From positions 37,322 to 101,321 of the forward strand of contig CALSOU010000007.1 in NCBI GenBank assembly GCA_943788055.1: DNA of 64,000 bases, written 5' to 3'. This document shows positions 40,358 to 52,873 of this stretch, in pieces. The notes under the pieces are model-generated. The model was not told where the DNA came from. It worked only from the letters and a program-made list of their open reading frames with translations, and made no database searches. The stretch is from an uncultured Saprospiraceae bacterium (GTDB lineage: Bacteria > Bacteroidota > Bacteroidia > Chitinophagales > Saprospiraceae). Numbering within the stretch: the stretch's first letter is position 1; the number at the start of each line of letters is the position of its first letter. The translations under genes and the position numbers were made by a program.

Positions 40358-41473
40358 TTATTTGCTTTTGAGATCCTTCAAAGCCAAATCAAAATCTTGT
40401 GGTGTATTTACATTTCTCAACCAATCTAGTTTCGATGGAACAATTTTTTTGATATCACTATTAATTAAGACTTTACGTGGACAGGCATATCCTAGACTAA
40501 GAAATCGCAATAATCTTTGGTAGATGTAGGGTTCATAAATACTTAGTAGCGGTTCAGGAAAAGCTTCTTTTGAAGTTGAAAATGACGTCGCTAACTTTCC
40601 AATTGCACGCTCTTGCTTCAGTGTTTCAATGGCTTCTGAATCAATGAATGGCAAATCACAGGCGAGGACAAACCACGCTGCTGACGGATCCAAGAGAAAT
40701 GCTGAACATATTGCACCAAGTGGTCCAAGGCCGAAAAATCGATCCTCTATAATGGGAAAAGAACCAAACATTTCATGGTAGTTTTCCGCAACTGAAATAT
40801 GCGCTTGAACTCCATTTTCCTCGAGTAACTCTGCCACATATTGCACCTGAGGCTTACCATGATAACTGATCGTAGCTTTGTTGCGTTTCATTCTCACACT
40901 TTTTCCACCTGCAAGCACAAGTCCTTTTAAAATGGGAGCATTTTCAACAGCGCGATCAATAATTTGCTGGTATAATATATTGACTTCCGAAAGATCAACT
41001 ATAGCAAAATTCCTTGATGTAAAATCCCCCTCTATTTGGGACTTCATCTCCGAGGTTTCTGTTATTACTGCATGCAAATCACCGCTCTTCATTATGGTCT
41101 CCAAAATCGATGATTGACCTTGACCTAAATAAAGAATAACCTGCTCTCCCCCGCCCTCATTATTTTGTTTGAAGATCACTTGGCTTCTTACAGCAGCAAG
41201 GTGCTGATCAAAAACCGAATTTCCATCACGTTGACCAAACTGCGTAACATATTCTTCGTAAAAAGTCCTATTATTAGATGAGACGGACTTACTATCTGTG
41301 ATCAATAAACTACGTACTTGACATTTCGAAAACCCTACAAAGGATTCATACCATAATGAAACTTGCTCATCTGTCTGAAAGCCTTTCAATACATAAGTAG
41401 ATACACCGTCTTTTAGTGGTAGATGTCTTGCGATTTTTGGGTGCTTTAAATGTACATTCTGATCTTCTGCCAT
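40358..41473 (-). CDS. Molybdenum cofactor guanylyltransferase (MobA-like) with an extra ~180-aa N-terminal domain
   Basis: LKGLVLAGGKSVRMKRNKATISYHGKPQVQYVAELL; RFFGLGPLGAICSAFLLDPSAAWFVLACDLPFI; overlaps moeA by 1 nt. Confidence 0.85.
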   Translation of the reverse strand: MAEDQNVHLKHPKIARHLPLKDGVSTYVLKGFQTDEQVSLWYESFVGFSKCQVRSLLITDSKSVSSNNRTFYEEYVTQFGQRDGNSVFDQHLAAVRSQVIFKQNNEGGGEQVILYLGQGQSSILETIMKSGDLHAVITETSEMKSQIEGDFTSRNFAIVDLSEVNILYQQIIDRAVENAPILKGLVLAGGKSVRMKRNKATISYHGKPQVQYVAELLEENGVQAHISVAENYHEMFGSFPIIEDRFFGLGPLGAICSAFLLDPSAAWFVLACDLPFIDSEAIETLKQERAIGKLATSFSTSKEAFPEPLLSIYEPYIYQRLLRFLSLGYACPRKVLINSDIKKIVPSKLDWLRNVNTPQDFDLALKDLKSK

Positions 41474-42687
41474 TACTTGATGCTTTGAATATCAATATTC
41501 TGAAATGGATAGAAATCGAAAAAATCTCCGGCTGAATAATCATCTCGACCAAAAGGCAACTCTATAAATCCATCTACTTGAGTTGGTGAGACCATATCTC
41601 CTGATCCGTTTCCCCGTTCAACACAAGCTAGTAATTGGCCATCTGCGGTTTGACGCAGAGTTGCTTGCGCAAAATTAGTCAACGGTGCTTTAAAATGCGT
41701 ATTTTCTTCCAGTTTGACACGCAATGATGAATCATGCTTGAGTCCTAGAGAAGCTCTATGCCAAGGCACAAAATACTTCAACAGGCAAACCAAGCCTGAT
41801 ACAGGATTACCCGGGAAGGCAAATGCTCTTTTGGTATCATTTGATCCAAAAAAGAACGGCTTACCCGGACGCTGTCGTACTTTGTGAAAAACCTTAGTTA
41901 GGCCGAGTTCTTCCAAAGCTTGTGGAATCAAATCGTATTTACCAGCAGAAACACCTCCCGATAAGATCAGTACGTCGTAGTCATTTAAGATCTGGCGTAG
42001 TTCAGTTTCAATTGAATACTTAGAATCCAGTACGTGAAAAATCGTCGCTTTGAGCCCAAGTAAACCCAGATGAGCTTTGATCATAGGTGCATTTGACATT
42101 CTGATCTGGTGTGGTTCAGGCTTAGTGTCGATTGGTACCAGTTCTTCTCCTGACGCAACGATTGCAATATTAGGATTCTTGAATACTTGCACTTGAGACT
42201 TCCCACAGGTCGCTAAGACATTAATGTCAATTGGTTTGATCATTTGTCCTTTTTCGATTAGAATCGAACCTTTCTTTTGATCTCTTCCCTGCACATGAAT
42301 ATTCTCACCTTCTTGTGGTTCAACTTCAACTTGAAATGAATCTTCAAGTCGATTTAGATCTTCATATCTTATAACTGTATCGGTCCCTATAGGTCGTGGT
42401 GCTCCGGTCATAACTTCAATACAGTTATTTGCATCTTTCAAAGTTTTTTGGGCTTGACCCGCAGCACCTTCACTTTCTATCTTGAAATATCTACAACCTT
42501 GCTCAAATGAATCATATGAGATCGCAATACCATCCATGCAAACGCGATCGAAAGGTGGAAAATCGCGATCAGCATAAATTGGCTCCGCAAGGATTCTCCC
42601 AAGTGCAGCTTCCAATGGAATTGCTTCCATTGAAAATACCAGTTTATGCTTTACAACTAAATCTAATGCCTCTTCTACAGAAATCAT
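41473..42687 (-). CDS. moeA: Molybdopterin molybdotransferase
   Basis: FPPFDRVCMDGIAISYDSF; VLILSGGVSAGKYDLIPQALEELG; FAFPGNPVSGLVCL. Confidence 0.95.
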   Translation of the reverse strand: MISVEEALDLVVKHKLVFSMEAIPLEAALGRILAEPIYADRDFPPFDRVCMDGIAISYDSFEQGCRYFKIESEGAAGQAQKTLKDANNCIEVMTGAPRPIGTDTVIRYEDLNRLEDSFQVEVEPQEGENIHVQGRDQKKGSILIEKGQMIKPIDINVLATCGKSQVQVFKNPNIAIVASGEELVPIDTKPEPHQIRMSNAPMIKAHLGLLGLKATIFHVLDSKYSIETELRQILNDYDVLILSGGVSAGKYDLIPQALEELGLTKVFHKVRQRPGKPFFFGSNDTKRAFAFPGNPVSGLVCLLKYFVPWHRASLGLKHDSSLRVKLEENTHFKAPLTNFAQATLRQTADGQLLACVERGNGSGDMVSPTQVDGFIELPFGRDDYSAGDFFDFYPFQNIDIQSIK

Positions 42688-44046: not shown

Positions 44047-44601
44047 CTACTGCAAACTCGATTCTTCCTCCAGATCTAGGATATACCATTCGATTTCGGC
44101 TATTTCTAAACTTTTCCTGCGACCAGTCTCTTTTGGAGCATAGTACTTAGCTAAATAGTCTAAAACGATCGGCTCGTTGGTGCCGAGATCGCCGAGACCC
44201 TGAGTTTCTTGCATCCACTTGATCATACTATGCCATCCTTCTCGGGTTGCCCTATTCTGGGTGATTAGTTTGGCACTGTGACATGCAGTACATGTTCCGA
44301 TGATTAGTTGTAAGTCCTTGTCGTCATGCAAACCAGTACGAATGTGGACACCATCAACCACCTTATCCCATTTTTCCTCTTCCAATTGTGCCATGCGTCT
44401 AGCGTCTGCTCGCTTATTGAGAGCGATAAGCTCTTCTTCCGAATAAACTTTTCGATCGAGGAATTCATGTATATCTTCTTTTAGGGCTACGTACCCGAAA
44501 AGCAAGAGGATTATTACAAAAACTGCATATATTAATCGAAGTAGCGTTTTGAATAAATCAGCCTCAGCGTACTCAATCGTGTCTTTTTTCTTTCTTCCCA
44601 A
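44047..44601 (-). CDS. Membrane-anchored monoheme c-type cytochrome (SorB-like position)
   Basis: TM segment then GTCTACHSAKLITQNRATREGWHSMIKWMQ; directly downstream of the sulfite-oxidase-like gene. Confidence 0.8.
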   Translation of the reverse strand: MGRKKKDTIEYAEADLFKTLLRLIYAVFVIILLLFGYVALKEDIHEFLDRKVYSEEELIALNKRADARRMAQLEEEKWDKVVDGVHIRTGLHDDKDLQLIIGTCTACHSAKLITQNRATREGWHSMIKWMQETQGLGDLGTNEPIVLDYLAKYYAPKETGRRKSLEIAEIEWYILDLEEESSLQ

Positions 44602-44603
44602 AA

Positions 44604-45857
44604 TTATTGCACTTTAAGCGCGATTCTATGACATGCATTATTTAAATAACCTTTTGGGTTCCAACCCGGTAAAATCATCGGTTGTTTCTTACCATCAGCA
44701 TCAGTGGCTCTAGCCCAAACCTCATAATATCCTTGTTGTGGAAATTCAATCTCCGCAGAAAATGGCTGCCAAGCAAATTTATTAGTAGATTCTTCAAGAT
44801 CACAATCGATCCAAGTTTCTCCAAAATCAATAGACAGCTCAACTTTTTCGATCCTATCCGCAGAAGTCCAAGATTTCCCTCTAACAGGCAATTTATCTCC
44901 ATACTTAATCATTGCTCCTGTCTTAGGATAAGAAATCAATGACTTGACAGGCATATTTTCAATGATACACATATCTTCGTCCTTCACCTTCATTCCCGGA
45001 GCAACAGGTTTACATGGTACTCTGTATGCTGGAGCTTTCATCTTCTGACCATCGTGTACCCTATCTCTTATGACAATCTTACTTAGCCACTTTCCTGATA
45101 CTGAAGCCGGGAAACCTCCTACTACTAATCTCAATGGATAACCATTAAGCATTGGAATGTCTGTTCCATTCATACTCCACGCTATCAAACTCTCATCTTC
45201 AAGAGCCTTTTCAATCGGAATACCACGTGATATTGGCACTTTCTTTGGGTCACCAGTCAAGTGCGTATCCTTTCCGTAGTAACCGATGTAAACCGCATTG
45301 GATTTCATTCCAACATCTTTTAAAACATCTGCAAGTCTTACCCCAGTCCAAGATGCACAACCTACAGCACCTGTGCTCCATTGGTTTCCTTTGGCAGGAG
45401 GGTAAAACTCACTTCTTCCATTTCCACCGCACTCCAATGTCAAATTATATGTATGTTGCTTAAATTTAGTCTTCAACTCCTTTAGAGTATATGTCTTCTT
45501 TTGCTTTGCTGACTCTCCTTCAATTGTTAATGTCCAAGAATTTACATCAACATCTACCGGTGGTATACCATTATTCCTAACAAAGAACAAATCATTCGGC
45601 GTCAAAGCCTCATCTAGTAAATGAGCTGGTGTCTCAGCGTTTATAGGTTTGTCATTTAGGATAATTAGTTGATCGCTTTTGCCTTCCAATCCAGGAGGTA
45701 AGCTTCCATCAAGAATACCTGCGGGAACAAGTCCTTCTGGAAAATTTTTGGCGAAAACTACTGGCATTCCAACAAATGTTGCGACACTCGCCATAATCGA
45801 CTTCTTCATGAAGTCTCGTCTATTCTTTATTTGCTTATTGTTTGGTTTACTCACCAT
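44604..45857 (-). CDS. Sulfite-oxidase-like molybdopterin-dependent oxidoreductase
   Basis: Tat motif RRDFMKKS; LTLECGGNGRSEFYPPAKGNQWSTGAVGCASWTGVRLADVL; C-terminal Mo-co dimerisation domain (KVELSIDFGETWIDCDL). Confidence 0.9.
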   Translation of the reverse strand: MVSKPNNKQIKNRRDFMKKSIMASVATFVGMPVVFAKNFPEGLVPAGILDGSLPPGLEGKSDQLIILNDKPINAETPAHLLDEALTPNDLFFVRNNGIPPVDVDVNSWTLTIEGESAKQKKTYTLKELKTKFKQHTYNLTLECGGNGRSEFYPPAKGNQWSTGAVGCASWTGVRLADVLKDVGMKSNAVYIGYYGKDTHLTGDPKKVPISRGIPIEKALEDESLIAWSMNGTDIPMLNGYPLRLVVGGFPASVSGKWLSKIVIRDRVHDGQKMKAPAYRVPCKPVAPGMKVKDEDMCIIENMPVKSLISYPKTGAMIKYGDKLPVRGKSWTSADRIEKVELSIDFGETWIDCDLEESTNKFAWQPFSAEIEFPQQGYYEVWARATDADGKKQPMILPGWNPKGYLNNACHRIALKVQ

Positions 45858-45995: not shown

Positions 45996-46011
45996 TGTAT
46001 CGTATGTTACA
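45996..46011 (-). promoter_or_regulatory. Crp/Fnr-type operator, imperfect (TGTAACATACGATACA)
   Basis: 139-154 nt upstream of the sulfite-oxidase-like start; matches TGTA-N8-TACA. Confidence 0.45.
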
Positions 46012-46035
46012 CACTTACGTAATATACTAGCAGCG

Positions 46036-46719
46036 TCAAGCTTCGTGCTTCTCTTCCTCTAGGACCGCTATTCTATTTCGTTGTTGTTCAATTAGCTTAT
46101 TTGCTTCCAATTTGCGCATTAATCGTGAAATCGAAACTCTAGTAGTATACAAATCGTCTGCAATATCTTGATGTGATATTACGAGTACCGAATTCTTCTT
46201 TAAGGCAACTTTCTCTCTTAAATATCTGATGAGTCTCTTCTCCAAGCTATGAAAAACAATATTATCAATGGCGGAAACCATCTCATTTAATCGCTGATTA
46301 TAACTTCCAAGAATGTAACGACGCCAAGATTGGTACTTGATCATCCACTCTTCAATCTTTTCGACAGGCACAAGCAGGATTTCCGATTCTGTTTCTGTTA
46401 GTGCTCTAACGGTTGACTTTTTCTCAACAGTACAACAATTCAGTGTCACAGCACAAGTTTCTCCTGATTCCAAGTAATACAATAAAAGCTCGTTACCATT
46501 TCCATCCTCTGTCATTACTTTTATCGATCCCGAAAGAACAACAGGCATGTACTTGATGGAGCTACCTATATCCACTAATATTTTGTCAGCAACATAGGTC
46601 TTGAGATGGCCATGTCTGCAAATCTCGTCTATTGTTTTGGGTTCAAACACTGCTGAAAACTTGGCTTCAAGTTTTTCAAAACAGGCTTTGTCAGCTGGTA
46701 TAAAATCCCTTTCGATCAT
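46036..46719 (-). CDS. Crp/Fnr-family transcriptional regulator with a Cys cluster in the sensor domain
   Basis: cNMP-like domain; GETCAVTLNCCTVEKKSTVRALTETE; HTH HQDIADDLYTTRVSISRLMRKLEANKLI. Confidence 0.93.
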   Translation of the reverse strand: MIERDFIPADKACFEKLEAKFSAVFEPKTIDEICRHGHLKTYVADKILVDIGSSIKYMPVVLSGSIKVMTEDGNGNELLLYYLESGETCAVTLNCCTVEKKSTVRALTETESEILLVPVEKIEEWMIKYQSWRRYILGSYNQRLNEMVSAIDNIVFHSLEKRLIRYLREKVALKKNSVLVISHQDIADDLYTTRVSISRLMRKLEANKLIEQQRNRIAVLEEEKHEA

Positions 46720-46846
46720 AATTGTGCTAAATTGACTTAATCACTGTGAAACGATAATTAAGAAGTATATGCTAATCGTTACAAATGTGTAAATCAGTAC
46801 GACCACATACCGAGATACAAAATTAGTCTTTAAGAGTATTGACTTG

Positions 46847-46862
46847 TGTAACATAGGTAACA
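46847..46862 (-). promoter_or_regulatory. Crp/Fnr-type operator upstream of the crp/fnr gene
   Basis: TGTTACCTATGTTACA on the minus strand; 37 nt downstream (5'-to-5') is TAATTTTG, a perfect TAnnTTTG. Confidence 0.6.
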
Positions 46863-47174
46863 TTCACTGCTATTACATGATTTCTAAATCACAAAATACA
46901 CTTCCTCAGGAATCTTTTTACTAGATCTAAGTGGATGTCTTAAGTTTTTCTGCGTGATTTTTCTTTTCACTGCTTTTTGAATTGAGTCAAAAACAAAATT
47001 TGATTAATTGAAAATACTACTTACTGGATCTGTTGGTTCTATTGGAATTCAAGCCTTAAAGTCTTTGCTAAATCAATATATTGAAGCTGCAATAGTGCTT
47101 TTCAATTGCTATTGCTGAATCATCAATTAAATAATATCTTGCAGAATCTTAAATTATCACGATTAATCTAGCTC

Positions 47175-47645
47175 ATGAACTACAACGACATCCTAAAACG
47201 TATCAGGTATACTTTCGATTACAACGATGAAACTATGATGCAAATATTTCTTAAAGGTGGAGAGTCCGTTGATAGATCAACTCTTAGCAATTGGATGAAA
47301 CATGAAGAAGACGAAGCTTTTGAAAAGATGGTGGCAAAGCGTTTGACTGTTTTCCTAAATGGATTGATCGCACATAAGCGTGGTGAAAGGGAGGGAGGCT
47401 CTCCCAAACCGGAGAAATACTTAACGAATAATCTCATTTTCAAAAAGCTGAAAATAGCTCTTAGTTTGACGACTGAAGATATTTTAGAGATGTTCATTCT
47501 GTCTGGGAAAGTAATCGGTATGCATGAAATTACTTCTTTTCTTCGTAATCCTGAAAAAAAACAATTTCAACCGATGAAGGACCAGTATCTGCGTCAATTC
47601 ATTTATGCGATTCAAGACAAGTACCGCCCTAGTGAAAATAAGTAG
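47175..47645 (+). CDS. DUF1456 (YehS-like) protein
   Basis: MNYNDILKRIRYTFDYNDETMMQIFLKGG...SNWMKHEEDEAFEKM; two-repeat architecture. Confidence 0.9.
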   Translation: MNYNDILKRIRYTFDYNDETMMQIFLKGGESVDRSTLSNWMKHEEDEAFEKMVAKRLTVFLNGLIAHKRGEREGGSPKPEKYLTNNLIFKKLKIALSLTTEDILEMFILSGKVIGMHEITSFLRNPEKKQFQPMKDQYLRQFIYAIQDKYRPSENK

Positions 47646-47941
47646 CCTTTAACGTATCTAGAGAATTAGAATCACGAAGTCAATTTCGTGCTGTGTGCCA
47701 TCGAGCGGCATATGGAAGGTGACGAACGAAGAGAGTCGTCCCGAAAGAACGATAGCGATTAAGGGATGAGCGAATAGCGAAACATGTAATACGCCGAAAA
47801 ATCGCCCAATTATTCAAAGCAATCCCATGAGAAAACGATGGATTTAGGAATACACTTCGAATAATTATCAGTGAGCAGTAATGCTATTCATGTAAAAAGT
47901 AGTTGCACTTTATGAGGAATGGCTAATTTTGCAATAAAAAG

Positions 47942-48526
47942 ATGATCAAACGCATTATAGGGTATTTGTTGGCTGGACTCGTTACCACGCTACCCATCAT
48001 TTTGACGCTTTCATTATTCTACTACTTGATCAGCAAGCTTCAAGAGTACTTCTACTTGCAGTCAGCATTTCTAGGGTTGATCGTTATTGTATTGGTCTTA
48101 ATCCTGATCGGTTATTTTACTTCTTCTTACATCGGAACAAATCTGTGGCTCCAGCTTGAAGGAGTATTGATGAAAGTTCCTTTGTTCCGACAATTTTATA
48201 AAGGAATCAAAGATGTAACTACCGCTTTTGTAGGTACTGAGAATAAATTTTCTGAGCCTGTTCTTGTGAAGATGACTGATCAAGGTGTATATAAAATGGG
48301 CTTTATTACAAACCGTGATATTGGTGACATTATCGAAAAGGATTCTGCAGCTACCGAAGGTGAGACAAACACACTTATTTCTGTATACTTCCCGCTTTCG
48401 CTTAGTTTATCAGGTGACTTATTTCTCGTACCGTTGCAGAATGTACAAATGATAAATCGCAAATCGAGTGACGTTATGCAATCAATTGTCAGTGGTGGAT
48501 TAGTAAAAATTCCAAATCTAAAATAG
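47942..48526 (+). CDS. DUF502 membrane protein
   Basis: GYLLAGLVTTLPIILTLSLFYYLI; VPLFRQFYKGIKDVTTAF; TNTLISVYFP. Confidence 0.9.
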   Translation: MIKRIIGYLLAGLVTTLPIILTLSLFYYLISKLQEYFYLQSAFLGLIVIVLVLILIGYFTSSYIGTNLWLQLEGVLMKVPLFRQFYKGIKDVTTAFVGTENKFSEPVLVKMTDQGVYKMGFITNRDIGDIIEKDSAATEGETNTLISVYFPLSLSLSGDLFLVPLQNVQMINRKSSDVMQSIVSGGLVKIPNLK

Positions 48527-48547
48527 TAAATCGTACAAATTTACCAA

Positions 48548-48715
48548 CTATATTATTGTAGATTGATTTATAGCCTTCAGAAGATCCTTAGTGGTAACAA
48601 TACCTACAACTTTGTTATTTTTTGCAGACAGTAAGCGCATGAAAACCAATCTCTAGAAGTGTTTTTATGGCATCGTCTAATAATGTCAGCATTGAGATAG
48701 ATCAAGAGCTTTATG
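48548..48715 (-). pseudogene. CBS-domain protein remnant
   Basis: ISMLTLLDDAIKTLLEIGFHAL / LSAKNNKVVGIVTTKDLLKAINQSTII*, joined by a frameshift; no start. Confidence 0.6.
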
Positions 48716-48769
48716 TATTTCTGATCTGAGGGTGTCCGACCTTTCAGCAAAATAAGTAAAACTATATTT

Positions 48770-48785
48770 TGTAACCTAAGTTACA
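48770..48785 (+). promoter_or_regulatory. Crp/Fnr-type operator (TGTAACCTAAGTTACA)
   Basis: Perfect arms TGTAAC/GTTACA; TATCTTTG (TAnnTTTG) begins exactly 37 nt downstream at 48807. Confidence 0.65.
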
Positions 48786-48818
48786 TGCTTAAGAAATCGA
48801 CGCTACTATCTTTGCCTT

Positions 48819-49064
48819 ATGGAAACGCAGAACACGATACGAAATCCTTATACTCAGCAGATTTTCTTTGCACTATTACTTTGTGCAACTCTAGGTCTTG
48901 CACCATTTGCTCCAGAACCACATCTCTTTGGAAAACTAAGGTGGATAATGGGCGGAGGCAATGGCATGCAATTAATTGATTACTGGGATTTATTTATGCA
49001 TGGTGCTCCGTTTCTCTTTTTATTTTATACAATTTTTAAGTTTATAACATTTAAGAAAAAATAA
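48819..49064 (+). CDS. Small membrane protein, first gene of the rhodanese operon
   Basis: 81 aa with two hydrophobic segments, 5 nt before the rhodanese ORF. Confidence 0.7.
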   Translation: METQNTIRNPYTQQIFFALLLCATLGLAPFAPEPHLFGKLRWIMGGGNGMQLIDYWDLFMHGAPFLFLFYTIFKFITFKKK

Positions 49065-49069
49065 CAATT

Positions 49070-49336
49070 ATGACAGAAGGACAATTACATTTAATCGACG
49101 TACGAGAAGATCACGAATATGCTCAGGTAAATATACCTGGATCGAAGCACATGCCTCTTTCAAATTTTACAGCCTATGTGGATGAGATTCGTGATCTTGA
49201 AGGTAAAAAAATTATCTATTGTAGATCTGGAAACAGAAGCGGTCAAGCAATTGACTTTTTGCGTCCACTAGGAGTTTCCAATATGGAAAACGGCGGCGGA
49301 ATTTCTGATGTAAAAAATTGGTTAGCTAGCAAATAA
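49070..49336 (+). CDS. Single-domain rhodanese
   Basis: LIDVREDHEYAQVNIPGSKHMPLSNF; KKIIYCRSGNRSGQAIDFL. Confidence 0.92.
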   Translation: MTEGQLHLIDVREDHEYAQVNIPGSKHMPLSNFTAYVDEIRDLEGKKIIYCRSGNRSGQAIDFLRPLGVSNMENGGGISDVKNWLASK

Positions 49337-49352
49337 GAATTAAGTCTATTCT

Positions 49353-49730
49353 ATGAATAAAATTCAAAGCATTTTCAAAATGACTTGCCCTCGATGTAGA
49401 GAGGGCAATTTGTTTGTAAAACCTTTTAATATCTCGAAACCACTTGACATGCATAAGGCATGTCAAGTATGTGGACAAAAGACTGAGCCAGAGCCGGGCT
49501 ACTACTTTGGAGCCATGTTCATTTCTTATATTTGGACAGGATGGTTGTGCCTTTTTATCGTAGGAACGACGATGATATTTTTAGACTGGACGATAACTCA
49601 GTCTTTTATCCTATTGATTAGTGCGATGGTTCTCAGTTTCTTTTGGGTCATGCGAATTTCAAGAAGTATTTATATACACGTTGATGTTTCTTACGATCCG
49701 AAGGCAAAAGAAAATCCTATCGAGCATTAA
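49353..49730 (+). CDS. DUF983 membrane protein
   Basis: MTCPRCREGNLFVKPFNISKPLDMHKACQVCGQKTEPEPGYYFGAMFISY. Confidence 0.92.
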   Translation: MNKIQSIFKMTCPRCREGNLFVKPFNISKPLDMHKACQVCGQKTEPEPGYYFGAMFISYIWTGWLCLFIVGTTMIFLDWTITQSFILLISAMVLSFFWVMRISRSIYIHVDVSYDPKAKENPIEH

Positions 49731-49839
49731 TAGTATTCTATACAAAAAAAGTGAACAGCTTGATCAATTTACCGCATTAATATCATAGGATCAAATCGGC
49801 ATATCTTTTGCGCTTCATTACCAATAATTAAAAAAAGTC

Positions 49840-49863
49840 TAGAACTATATTGATCTAGTTCTA
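49840..49863. promoter_or_regulatory. Inverted repeat TAGAACTA-N8-TAGTTCTA upstream of the second rhodanese
   Basis: 8-bp perfect arms about 90 nt before the 49954 start; an operator or hairpin. Confidence 0.3.
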
Positions 49864-49953
49864 CCAGATTACAAACCTTTACAGAAGTGCGGTCATTGTG
49901 AAACACATTCGTTTCAAATAACAGTCTTCTTTACAAATTAAAATCAATATAAC

Positions 49954-50274
49954 ATGTTTAGTTTTTTAAAGAGTCTCTTCGGTGGTGGAAATAAAACTGC
50001 TGAAATTCATGAAATGCTTGCCAATGGAGCAATCATCCTAGATGCACGCACACCCGCAGAATTCAAGGATGGACATATTCCAAAAGCCACAAATTTTCCA
50101 GTACAAACGATCGGTGCTAACATTAGCAAGATCAAGAAAATGAATAAGCCAGTTGTGGCCTACTGCCAATCAGGTATACGCAGCGGTGCAGCTGTTGCTA
50201 CTTTAAAGTCAGCAGGTATTCAAGCAATCAATGCAGGTAGTATGTACAAATTGGACGCGATTATGCACGAATAA
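49954..50274 (+). CDS. Rhodanese-like domain protein
   Basis: GAIILDARTPAEFKDGHIPKATNFPVQTIG; KPVVAYCQSGIRSGAAVATLKSAG. Confidence 0.93.
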   Translation: MFSFLKSLFGGGNKTAEIHEMLANGAIILDARTPAEFKDGHIPKATNFPVQTIGANISKIKKMNKPVVAYCQSGIRSGAAVATLKSAGIQAINAGSMYKLDAIMHE

Positions 50275-50300
50275 AAAAGTCCAAAAACAGTAAACAAAGC

Positions 50301-50341
50301 AAAAGAGGATAACTTGCGAAAGCGAGTTAACCCCTTTTTTT
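50301..50341 (+). terminator. Rho-independent terminator
   Basis: AAGAGGATAACTTGCGAAAGCGAGTTAACCCCTTTTTTTT after the second rhodanese. Confidence 0.7.
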
Positions 50342-51021
50342 TGTGTCAACCAATAAGCGTTTTTATTTTAATAAAAGTCCAAACTATACTGAGAGCTAAG
50401 AAGCTATTCTCCCTTCAGTGATAGAGATTATGTATAAAATTTCGGTAGCGTTTTTAGTTGATTTTATGGCTTGTGGAAGCACAAAACGCAAGCGTCGTGC
50501 TAGCTCCGAAGGATAAACAACAGCTTCCCAAATGTTGAAATTTTGACATTGAAGTCGAAATAGGCCATGAACCACAACATAATATTTCAATGTTAGGCTG
50601 TGAATTACAAATGAAAATCTGTCAAAAGCGATGTAGTTTATAAGTTTAATCTGCATTAATTAAAACTATACTTTGAGAGTGTCTCGTTTCCTCAAGTGTT
50701 ATTATCTTGCCTACAAGAGCCTGAGCCAAAGTCCCAAGCAGTTTGTTAACACCAAAAGCAAAACAACCATTACTTTACCTATCTTGAAAAATAGCAAATA
50801 GCAATTATTCAATAGCGCCAAGAATATCGTGTGTGGGAAACTCAACTTGAAGATTAAGGAAAGCAATTATAAACGACTAAGAAAGAAAGTAGCTATATTG
50901 CTCAAAGGAATACAGAGATGGTAATCCCAGAGAAGTATCAATCATCAAGAATATTATCCCAAGTAGAATTAAATTAGAAAAGGGAAACTCGTGTTTACAA
51001 ATTTCCCTCTTTAGATCTTTC

Positions 51022-51044
51022 CACTTCAGAGATTCTCTGAAGTG
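51022..51044. repeat. 23-nt perfect palindrome CACTTCAGAGATTCTCTGAAGTG
   Basis: 11-bp arms, 1-nt centre, just 3' of the sterol desaturase gene. Confidence 0.6.
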
Positions 51045-51079
51045 ATATAGTATCTTTTTAATCTAAAGATCAATAACTA

Positions 51080-51955
51080 CTAAGTTTGACCTTTTCTGAA
51101 CCCATAAAGATTCTGATGGATGAAATCCTTCGGAAATTTATCATCTCCTTCAAAGCCAATTTCAATCTTTCCACTATCTTCTGGAATATAGTCCGTCTTG
51201 AATATGTAGTCCCATAAACTTAGACTTATACCGTAGTTCACACCAGATTTACCTTCTGGTAAAACAGAAGCGTGATGGTACAAGTGCATCACAGGATTGT
51301 TGAATATATACTTCAGTGGTCCCCAAGTAATCTTCATATTTGAATGATTCAAGTGTCCGATAGCAATTGTAATAAAGTGTACTATGTATGCTTGTTCTGG
51401 CTCGAAACCACCAATAATCATTACTCCAAAGGTTTTAAGAGGCTTATATAGAATATTTTCCATCCAATGGTATCTTAGGTGGGCAGCAAAACCCATTTCC
51501 TTTACACTGTGGTGTACCTTATGGAATTTCCATAGGAATGGATACTTGTGCAGAAGTACATGCGTAAACCACTGTACAAAATCAAGTATAATGAAAAACA
51601 CAAACAATTGAACAAATGGATTCCATTGTGAAATATCAAAAAGTGCGAAAGTTTTTGCAGTGACATTAAACTCTGCAAATAGCAAACCTAAAATCTGATA
51701 AACTCCACTTATCACAATTGCAAAAATGAAAAAGTTGAAAAACATGTAAAAAGTGTCCAACCAAAAATCTTTCCTGAAAATTGCTTGCTCTTTTCTCCAT
51801 GGGAATGCAATTTCCAGCAGCCAAACGACTAGTGAAATAGCAATTAACCCCCAGAAATAATTTGTGTACCATGGCACGTCAAATATGATTGACTTCCATG
51901 TCCAATTCAAGGTGCCTTGAAATGAATTAATAAAGGACTCTAAGTATTTTTGCAT
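51080..51955 (-). CDS. Sterol desaturase / fatty acid hydroxylase family protein
   Basis: His motifs HVLLHKYPFLWKFHKVHHS and LNHSN...HLYHHA. Confidence 0.92.
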   Translation of the reverse strand: MQKYLESFINSFQGTLNWTWKSIIFDVPWYTNYFWGLIAISLVVWLLEIAFPWRKEQAIFRKDFWLDTFYMFFNFFIFAIVISGVYQILGLLFAEFNVTAKTFALFDISQWNPFVQLFVFFIILDFVQWFTHVLLHKYPFLWKFHKVHHSVKEMGFAAHLRYHWMENILYKPLKTFGVMIIGGFEPEQAYIVHFITIAIGHLNHSNMKITWGPLKYIFNNPVMHLYHHASVLPEGKSGVNYGISLSLWDYIFKTDYIPEDSGKIEIGFEGDDKFPKDFIHQNLYGFRKGQT

Positions 51956-52104
51956 ATTAATTTATTTTATTTATTAGCAGTCAACGCCCTAGATCTTAAA
52001 CACTAAGAATCATCTTAGGTTGTGTTTAAGATCTTCGCATTTCAGATTTTTATTAGCAAAAATCCCGCCACAGCACTAAATTAAGCGTTTTAACAATCTT
52101 TTTA

Positions 52105-52120
52105 TGTAACACCTGTTACG
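52105..52120. promoter_or_regulatory. Crp/Fnr-type operator between divergent genes (TGTAACACCTGTTACG)
   Basis: TATCTTGC begins 37 nt downstream on +; TAATTTAG begins 37 nt downstream on -. Confidence 0.55.
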
Positions 52121-52195
52121 TTGAGATCTTCCGAATAATAGTATCTTGCTACATTATTGGAAAATTTACACTAGAGTGACAAAACAATAGGTACT

Positions 52196-52873
52196 ATGAC
52201 AAAGAATTTTGAGACTAAATTTACAGGAGCAGCATTTATCGTAGCTGCCTTATTACTTTGGATTGGCTGGGCATTATCTCCTCATCATATTGGCGAATAT
52301 GTCGCAGCTGCCGATTTTGAGGCAATTGGCGAAAATGTATGGTATTGGATTTGGATGTATCGTATCCATATTTTTGGTTGGGTTGCAATGGGTGTAGCTA
52401 TATTTTCGCTTGTCTCATTTACAGCAAAAAGGACATCTCGTGTACTTATTTTACCTGGAGCAGGGGTACTTATCATTGGTACTTTCACCTTAGCTATTGC
52501 TAATGCCTTCTATTACAATTTTGGAGCATGGGGTGTTGGTAAAACGGCTGGTCTTTCAGCCTCGGAAATCGAAGATTTTGTAAATGGAATATTGTATACG
52601 AATCAATACGTAACTTGTTTTGTGCGGTTCGGTCGTGTATTCTCAGGAGTAGGTTTGGTTTTGCTCGGTTTGGGTTTTATAAAATGGAACATAGTGAGCA
52701 AGTCGCTTGGATGGTTTACTGTCGTATTGGGTTTTGTTGCTATGGGAATCATTATGGGAATTCCTGACAATTTCGAAATCTACAAGCCCGTATTTCATGT
52801 CAAGGTTATTTGGTTATTGATTATGGGAGGTACGCTATTGTGGAAAGGGGTAAATGTCTCCAAGTCCGAGTAG
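52196..52873 (+). CDS. Multi-pass membrane protein, function unknown
   Basis: 225 aa, about six hydrophobic segments (FIVAALLLWIGWALS, IHIFGWVAMGVAIFSLVSF, VIWLLIMGGTLLW). Confidence 0.8.
   Translation: MTKNFETKFTGAAFIVAALLLWIGWALSPHHIGEYVAAADFEAIGENVWYWIWMYRIHIFGWVAMGVAIFSLVSFTAKRTSRVLILPGAGVLIIGTFTLAIANAFYYNFGAWGVGKTAGLSASEIEDFVNGILYTNQYVTCFVRFGRVFSGVGLVLLGLGFIKWNIVSKSLGWFTVVLGFVAMGIIMGIPDNFEIYKPVFHVKVIWLLIMGGTLLWKGVNVSKSE

Follow-up and report, generated by a model that had tools for sequence, protein, structure and literature searches.

Genes and putative operators at the locus

The window analysed here is a stretch of 64,000 nucleotides (nt) from the genome of an uncultured Saprospiraceae bacterium. 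It carries a gene for a Crp/Fnr-family regulator, hereafter the 46036 regulator after its first coordinate, together with copies of the palindrome TGTAAC-N4-GTTACA upstream of this gene and of several neighbours. The genes concerned are as follows.

46036..46719, minus strand: Crp/Fnr-family regulator, 227 amino acids (Pfam HTH_Crp_2 and cNMP_binding; family alignment)
48819..49064, plus strand: membrane protein, 81 amino acids, first gene of the rhodanese operon (no Pfam family)
49070..49336, plus strand: single-domain rhodanese, a sulfurtransferase (Pfam Rhodanese, 8.6e-12)
49353..49730, plus strand: DUF983 protein (Pfam DUF983)
49954..50274, plus strand: second rhodanese (Pfam Rhodanese, 6.3e-16)
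51080..51955, minus strand: sterol desaturase/fatty-acid hydroxylase family protein (Pfam FA_hydroxylase, 1.3e-25)
52196..52873, plus strand: membrane protein, possible target through one shared site, TGTAACACCTGTTACG
44604..45857, minus strand: molybdopterin sulfite oxidase/dehydrogenase (Pfam Oxidored_molyb, 3.4e-49)
44047..44601, minus strand: haem c protein, encoded 3' of the sulfite oxidase (Pfam Dehyd-heme_bind, 8.6e-07; weak SorB match)

The 46036 regulator has the recognition helix TTRVSISR, and C89, C95 and C96 in its effector domain. The second rhodanese gene lies 223 nt further downstream and may or may not belong to the rhodanese-operon transcript. The sulfite oxidase scores 254 bits as SorA, under the cut-off of 600, and profile searches placed the 52196 protein in no Pfam or NCBIfam family. 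MobA-like and MoeA genes (40358-42687) lie near the sulfite oxidase and fit the supply of its molybdenum cofactor; no site was found upstream of them.

The sites and their -7 octamers, with the offset defined as the distance from the first base of the site to the first base of the octamer, are listed below.

48770..48785, plus strand: site TGTAACCTAAGTTACA, perfect, upstream of the rhodanese operon
48807..48814, plus strand: -7 octamer TATCTTTG, offset 37 from TGTAACCTAAGTTACA
46862->46847, minus strand: site TGTTACCTATGTTACA, upstream of the Crp/Fnr regulator gene (putative autoregulation)
46825->46818, minus strand: -7 octamer TAATTTTG, offset 37 from TGTTACCTATGTTACA
52105..52120, both directions: site TGTAACACCTGTTACG, common to two divergent promoters
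52083->52076, minus strand: -7 octamer TAATTTAG, offset 37, serving the sterol desaturase
52142..52149, plus strand: octamer TATCTTGC, offset 37 from TGTAACACCTGTTACG, facing the 52196 gene
46011->45996, minus strand: site TGTAACATACGATACA, weaker, upstream of the sulfite oxidase, immediately beyond the regulator stop codon
45968..45975, minus strand: TAACTTAA, weak -7 candidate, offset 36 from TGTAACATACGATACA

The initial annotation of this DNA had reported these four sites, an octamer at an offset of exactly 37 for four promoter directions, and a sulfite oxidase site for which only TAACTTAA, at offset 36 and not 37, is available; all coordinates and letters agree with the sequence. The octamer TATCTTGC matches TAnnTTTG at only four of six positions, yet is an exact match to TAnnTTGY, a second -7-type box reported for Flavobacterium psychrophilum at the position that TAnnTTTG occupies (PMC9723704). 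A site directly 3' of the regulator gene, like TGTAACATACGATACA, is also present in other loci examined (L019, L020, L021, L022, L023, L036 and L043).

Occurrence of the sites in the source genome

The whole genome (2,995,115 bp, 3.0 Mb) was scanned, with the motif read backwards as a control. Exact matches to TGTWACN4GTWACA occur at two places, both within the same 2 kb of the window; the reversed control is about equally frequent, and the bare motif alone is not rare enough. When up to one mismatch is allowed, TGTAACN4GTTACA is found at 14 places, the same as the control, and the bare palindrome was rejected as evidence on this ground. Four of these 14 palindromes cluster in 6.1 kb (0.02 expected, P ~7e-9), while the remaining ten lie mostly inside open reading frames (8/10, with 2/10 outside). 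The composite GTAAC-N4-GTTAC-N22-TAnnTTTG at up to one mismatch has three matches in the genome, every one in the window (0.18 expected from base composition, P ~8e-4).

An AT-rich genome will yield palindromes and TAnnTTTG-like octamers, from which the matches could have been picked when the DNA was first annotated. The bare palindrome at one mismatch and the composite at three mismatches (33 matches, control 71) are indeed no commoner than their controls. Such a chance origin is nevertheless scarcely credible in view of the clustering and of the placement of the top three composites, all in the window, and is refuted by the massive offset-37 peak in the loci of relatives (see below). A large regulon in this genome was rejected on the basis of the lenient composite scan, which showed no excess at up to three mismatches; the regulon here is thus small.

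Outside the window, TGTAAACAATGTTACA with TATATTCG at offset 37 (contig C8, 51423-51466, minus strand; locus L172) stands before a gene for a LysR-type helix-turn-helix protein and a TauE/SafE gene, and is likely a fifth member of the regulon. Another pair, GTGACTTAGGTTAC with TATTTTTA at the same offset (C8:32648, L171), precedes a gene for a DUF2202 protein, a possible further target.

Spacing and promoter geometry across relatives

Two samples were used for comparison: a class-wide set of 396 Bacteroidia genomes, and 80 loci of relatives, taken from named genomes, that surround the regulator gene. In the class-wide set, a search that allowed 29 different gaps between TGTAACN4GTTACA and TAnnTTTG yielded 34 matches against 4 for the control, and offsets 37 and 38 predominate in the 30 loci fetched from this gap scan. 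Composites number 121, in 81/396 genomes, against 13 for the control. In the 80 regulator loci, 62 exact composites have offset 37, 7 have offset 36 and 1 has offset 38, with a mean of ~0.13 per other offset and no match of the reversed motif at offset 37. The initial annotation had named a lack of any spacing constraint as an outcome that would count against it; offset 37 dominates in the class genomes and in the regulator loci alike.

In the mapped transcriptome of Flavobacterium psychrophilum, TAnnTTTG spans -12 to -5 (PMC9723704). Because the box sits there and the offset is 37, the site is centred at -41.5, which agrees with the centre near -41 proposed earlier and supports the class II geometry proposed with it: the operator is centred near -41.5 and fixed relative to the -10/-7 element, as is characteristic of class II activation. 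No conserved -33 element was found in the spacer between site and octamer in the loci of relatives. The same box position places the predicted start of the rhodanese-operon promoter at 48819, the ATG of the 81-amino-acid protein, so that this transcript would be leaderless; L073 appears similar.

The site covers the -33 region, and a regulator bound there could in principle block the polymerase and act as a repressor. We consider this improbable, given the rigid 37-nt offset with scarcely any sites at 36 or 38, where other positions would suit a repressor as well, and given that the absence of a conserved -33 element fits class II activation. The reading we favour is that the 46036 protein (or its paralogue, see below) acts as a homodimeric Crp/Fnr activator that would bind TGTAAC-N4-GTTACA centred at -41.5, replace the -33 element and recruit RNA polymerase to TAnnTTTG promoters. 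Within the window, activation is predicted for the rhodanese/DUF983 operon and for the genes of the sterol desaturase, the sulfite oxidase and the regulator itself; outside the window, it is predicted for the TauE/SafE operon.

In loci L086-L105 a different palindrome, ATGAT-N4-ATCAT, likewise shows enrichment at an offset of exactly 37 from TAnnTTTG, which points to another regulon of the Crp/Fnr type.

Predicted target genes in relatives

The 162 sites in the regulator loci of relatives precede genes for persulfide dioxygenase-rhodanese fusions (53), TauE/SafE (24), YeeE/YedE (14), sterol desaturase (11), the regulator itself (8), a Tll0287-like haem protein (8), SulP (8), SQR (5), TolC (5), DUF983 (4), a YgaP-type membrane protein (YgaP-TM; 4), sulfite oxidase (2) and peroxiredoxin (2), plus singletons. 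These loci were picked for holding the regulator, so the counts favour its neighbours. The class-wide scan is free of this bias and gave the same target genes, plus hcp genes. The names persulfide dioxygenase and SQR are our reading of the sequences, for which Pfam gives only Lactamase_B with rhodanese, and Pyr_redox_2, respectively. As judged by operator position only, the sites assign control of sulfide and persulfide oxidation genes to this regulator family.

The initial annotation had also considered that the motif might not be conserved in orthologous promoters. Conservation is seen: sterol desaturase homologues have a site in 11/32 loci, including L016 of the same genus, and DUF983 homologues in 7/26 loci, while a site is present with 4/8 sulfite oxidase homologues, in addition to the eight sites before regulator genes. 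Many rhodanese proteins are among the homologues with a site, some of them as domains of longer fusions. In sediment amended with NaHS, pdo and sqr transcripts were reported to increase, with Bacteroidota among the responders (PMC12345210).

The link between regulator family and site

Composites occur in 73/237 genomes with the regulator family and in 8/159 without it (Fisher 5e-11, a statistic that ignores shared descent). Among 186 aligned members of the family, one position of the recognition helix is occupied by Val in 129 and by Glu in 57; Val195 of the 46036 regulator aligns with Glu181 of CRP and with a Val in NtcA. All 1024 half-sites were enumerated with three gaps and 24 offsets, without use of the motif. 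At offset 37, the half-site obtained was GTAAC around regulators of the Val type and GTGAT/GTGAC around those of the Glu type. An exact 5+5 half-site search around the Glu-type regulators had found nothing, and it was the relaxed enumeration that gave GTGAT/GTGAC.

The same division was seen in 80 further loci, where 25 loci of the Val type have GTAAC and 1 has GTGA, against 1 and 8, respectively, of the Glu type (P 3e-6). It extends to whole genomes: GTAAC sites are found in 27/40 Val-type and 7/40 Glu-type genomes (P 1e-5), and GTGAY sites in 12/40 and 27/40, respectively (P 0.0016). The genes behind the GTGAY sites are of the same kinds, namely persulfide dioxygenase, TauE, SulP, DUF983, YgaP-type, peroxiredoxin and thioredoxin reductase. 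On the tree, the Val/Glu position has changed at least seven times. The proposal that the family of the 46036 regulator reads these sites finds support in the way that the recognition-helix residue covaries with the half-site.

The source genome also encodes a paralogue (C12:215299), 54% identical to the 46036 protein and with the same type of recognition helix (RVxxSR). Its neighbours encode a SulP permease and a persulfide dioxygenase-rhodanese fusion (C12:210000-221000, L045), and its locus holds a degenerate site, AGTGACCGCGGTTACC, at offset 36. The sites in the window might be bound mainly by this paralogue, or by another Crp/Fnr protein of the genome, rather than by the 46036 protein: the helix type and the sulfur-related neighbours of the paralogue would fit, and HcpR-like proteins seem to have the half-site in common. 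We regard this as unlikely, since the sites surround the 46036 gene, one of them in its own promoter, while the paralogue's own locus has a degenerate site only, and most relatives that have the sites contain a single member of the family.

The regulator protein and its possible signal

The 46036 protein belongs to the Crp/Fnr superfamily, with PF00027, PF13545 and PF00325 above their cut-offs, and an AlphaFold model (pLDDT 88.7) used for a fold search matched CRP-type proteins. It scores far below the NCBIfam equivalogs for CRP (52.6 bits, cut-off 266) and NtcA (37.1 bits, cut-off 245), and the family alignment shows no conserved Cys before C89, so that the N-terminal Cys cluster of the FNR (4Fe-4S) type is lacking. 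The operator GTAAC-N4-GTTAC contains the NtcA-type pattern GTA-N8-TAC at -41.5, a likeness in working and not in membership. Arg82 of CRP is not kept among the 186 members, the position being K in 111, R in 20 and otherwise Q, P, T or A.

The cysteines are C89 in 185/186 members, C95 in 166/186 and C96 in 147/186. According to the model and the alignment, C89 and C95/C96 lie at the start and the end of a helix that forms part of the cAMP pocket in CRP. Cysteines in the former cAMP pocket, taken with the target set, suggest that the protein is a thiol-based sensor for reactive sulfur: persulfide or polysulfide derived from sulfide may be sensed via C89, usually with C95/C96. That the signal is reactive sulfur is the assignment we lean towards, by a narrow balance of the evidence.

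Alternatively, the regulon may be real and respond to another signal, such as nitric oxide, peroxide or disulfide stress, haem, or an Fe-S or other metal centre on the cysteines, the sulfur genes sharing in that stress. Some targets are not specific to sulfur (peroxiredoxin, thioredoxin reductase, bd oxidase, cytochrome c peroxidase and TolC), the same half-site stands before hcp genes with an HcpR-like gene in divergent orientation, and three clustered Cys could bind a metal. We find this alternative possible but rather doubtful, as the commonest targets are persulfide dioxygenase, TauE, YeeE, SulP, SQR, DUF983 and YgaP-TM, and the hcp cases come from genomes without this family.

A probable sulfur regulon in Bacteroidota

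We consider it likely that these sites serve as operators in a compact sulfur regulon of an activator of the 46036 type. Spacing, conservation, target set and the covariation of recognition residue and site are read from the sequences themselves. The sulfide/sulfite gene set is very probably switched on by the cysteine-bearing Crp-type protein encoded beside it, and the predicted regulon is one member of a widespread Bacteroidota sulfur regulon.

Several points weigh against this interpretation. Binding, activation, cysteine chemistry and signal are what we infer from the sequences. The tree provides only three independent contrasts for the link between residue and site, of which at most 3/3 agree and none disagrees (P 0.25), and there are exceptions: four Val rows have GTGA sites only and two Glu rows have GTAAC only. 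TGTAAC-N4-GTTACA at offsets 37/38 also lies upstream of hybrid-cluster-protein genes in genomes without this family, and is thus not exclusive to it. In the source genome, the paralogue may use the same sites, the sole site of the persulfide dioxygenase gene is degenerate and has offset 36, and SQR was not found with one query. About a fifth of the family lacks C96 and a tenth lacks C95. No homologue of the 52196 gene turned up in the loci examined around regulator genes, and one shared site makes it a candidate member.

A broader proposal, which we hold at about even, is that the Crp/Fnr subfamily found in 237/396 Bacteroidia genomes is the reactive-sulfur activator of the phylum, with persulfide-sensing cysteines in the former cyclic-nucleotide pocket, and with an operator that went through several switches between GTAAC and GTGAY, in company with one recognition-helix residue, as the gene set and the promoter geometry stayed unchanged. 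A literature search (Crp/Fnr with persulfide, rhodanese, SQR or Bacteroidetes) returned no description of this regulon, an absence that is weak evidence, with subscription papers poorly covered. Bacteroidota are abundant in sediments and oceans, and the control of their sulfide/persulfide oxidation was not described in the literature searched. From the analysis come a regulator family, an operator with its promoter geometry, and a list of targets, all amenable to testing in culturable Flavobacteriaceae. Families of unknown function or loose naming (DUF983, the sterol-desaturase-like hydroxylase and the Tll0287-like haem protein) are tied to sulfur stress. For the evolution of transcription-factor specificity, the family makes a useful natural case, since one recognition residue appears to have changed in step with the operators of a whole regulon.

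Comparison with known systems

By alignment, the cyanobacterial Crp/Fnr activator NtcA has a Val at the position of CRP Glu181, like the 46036 regulator. NtcA binds GTA-N8-TAC and, positioned at about -41.5, acts as an activator of class II promoters; it senses 2-oxoglutarate and controls nitrogen genes. Unlike the 46036 family, it does not have the Cys motif. Escherichia coli CRP is similar in its fold, in a helix-turn-helix with the R180/R185 equivalents conserved, and in class II geometry, but differs in having Glu181 in place of Val and Arg82 in its cAMP pocket.

HcpR, a haem-binding nitrosative-stress regulator of hcp (PMC13370916), is also a Crp/Fnr activator of Bacteroidota, and Bacteroidia hcp promoters resemble those described here; their sites, however, come from genomes without the 46036 family. 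At loci L062, L063, L064 and L066, hybrid-cluster-protein or linked ferredoxin genes have TGTAAC-N4-GTTACA at offset 37/38; in L066 a divergent HcpR-like gene, with the helix TRPSLSR, adjoins the site.

Sulfane-sulfur sensing by SoxR/sHdrR (ArsR-type), OxyR, MarR and PerR controls genes of sulfur oxidation or sulfane-sulfur removal (PMC10451225, PMC12423496, PMC6831875, PMC11211675, PMC9952342). These belong to other protein families and are mostly repressors, whereas the 46036 family would be an activator with a putative sulfur-sensing function. The highest-scoring sequence in the PDB, at 104 bits, belongs to 3dv8, the structure of a Crp/Fnr protein from Eubacterium rectale whose function and regulon are unknown. 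It differs in its Firmicutes origin and Glu-type helix, but has Cys at the C89 and C95 positions, from which the Cys-bearing family may reach beyond Bacteroidota.

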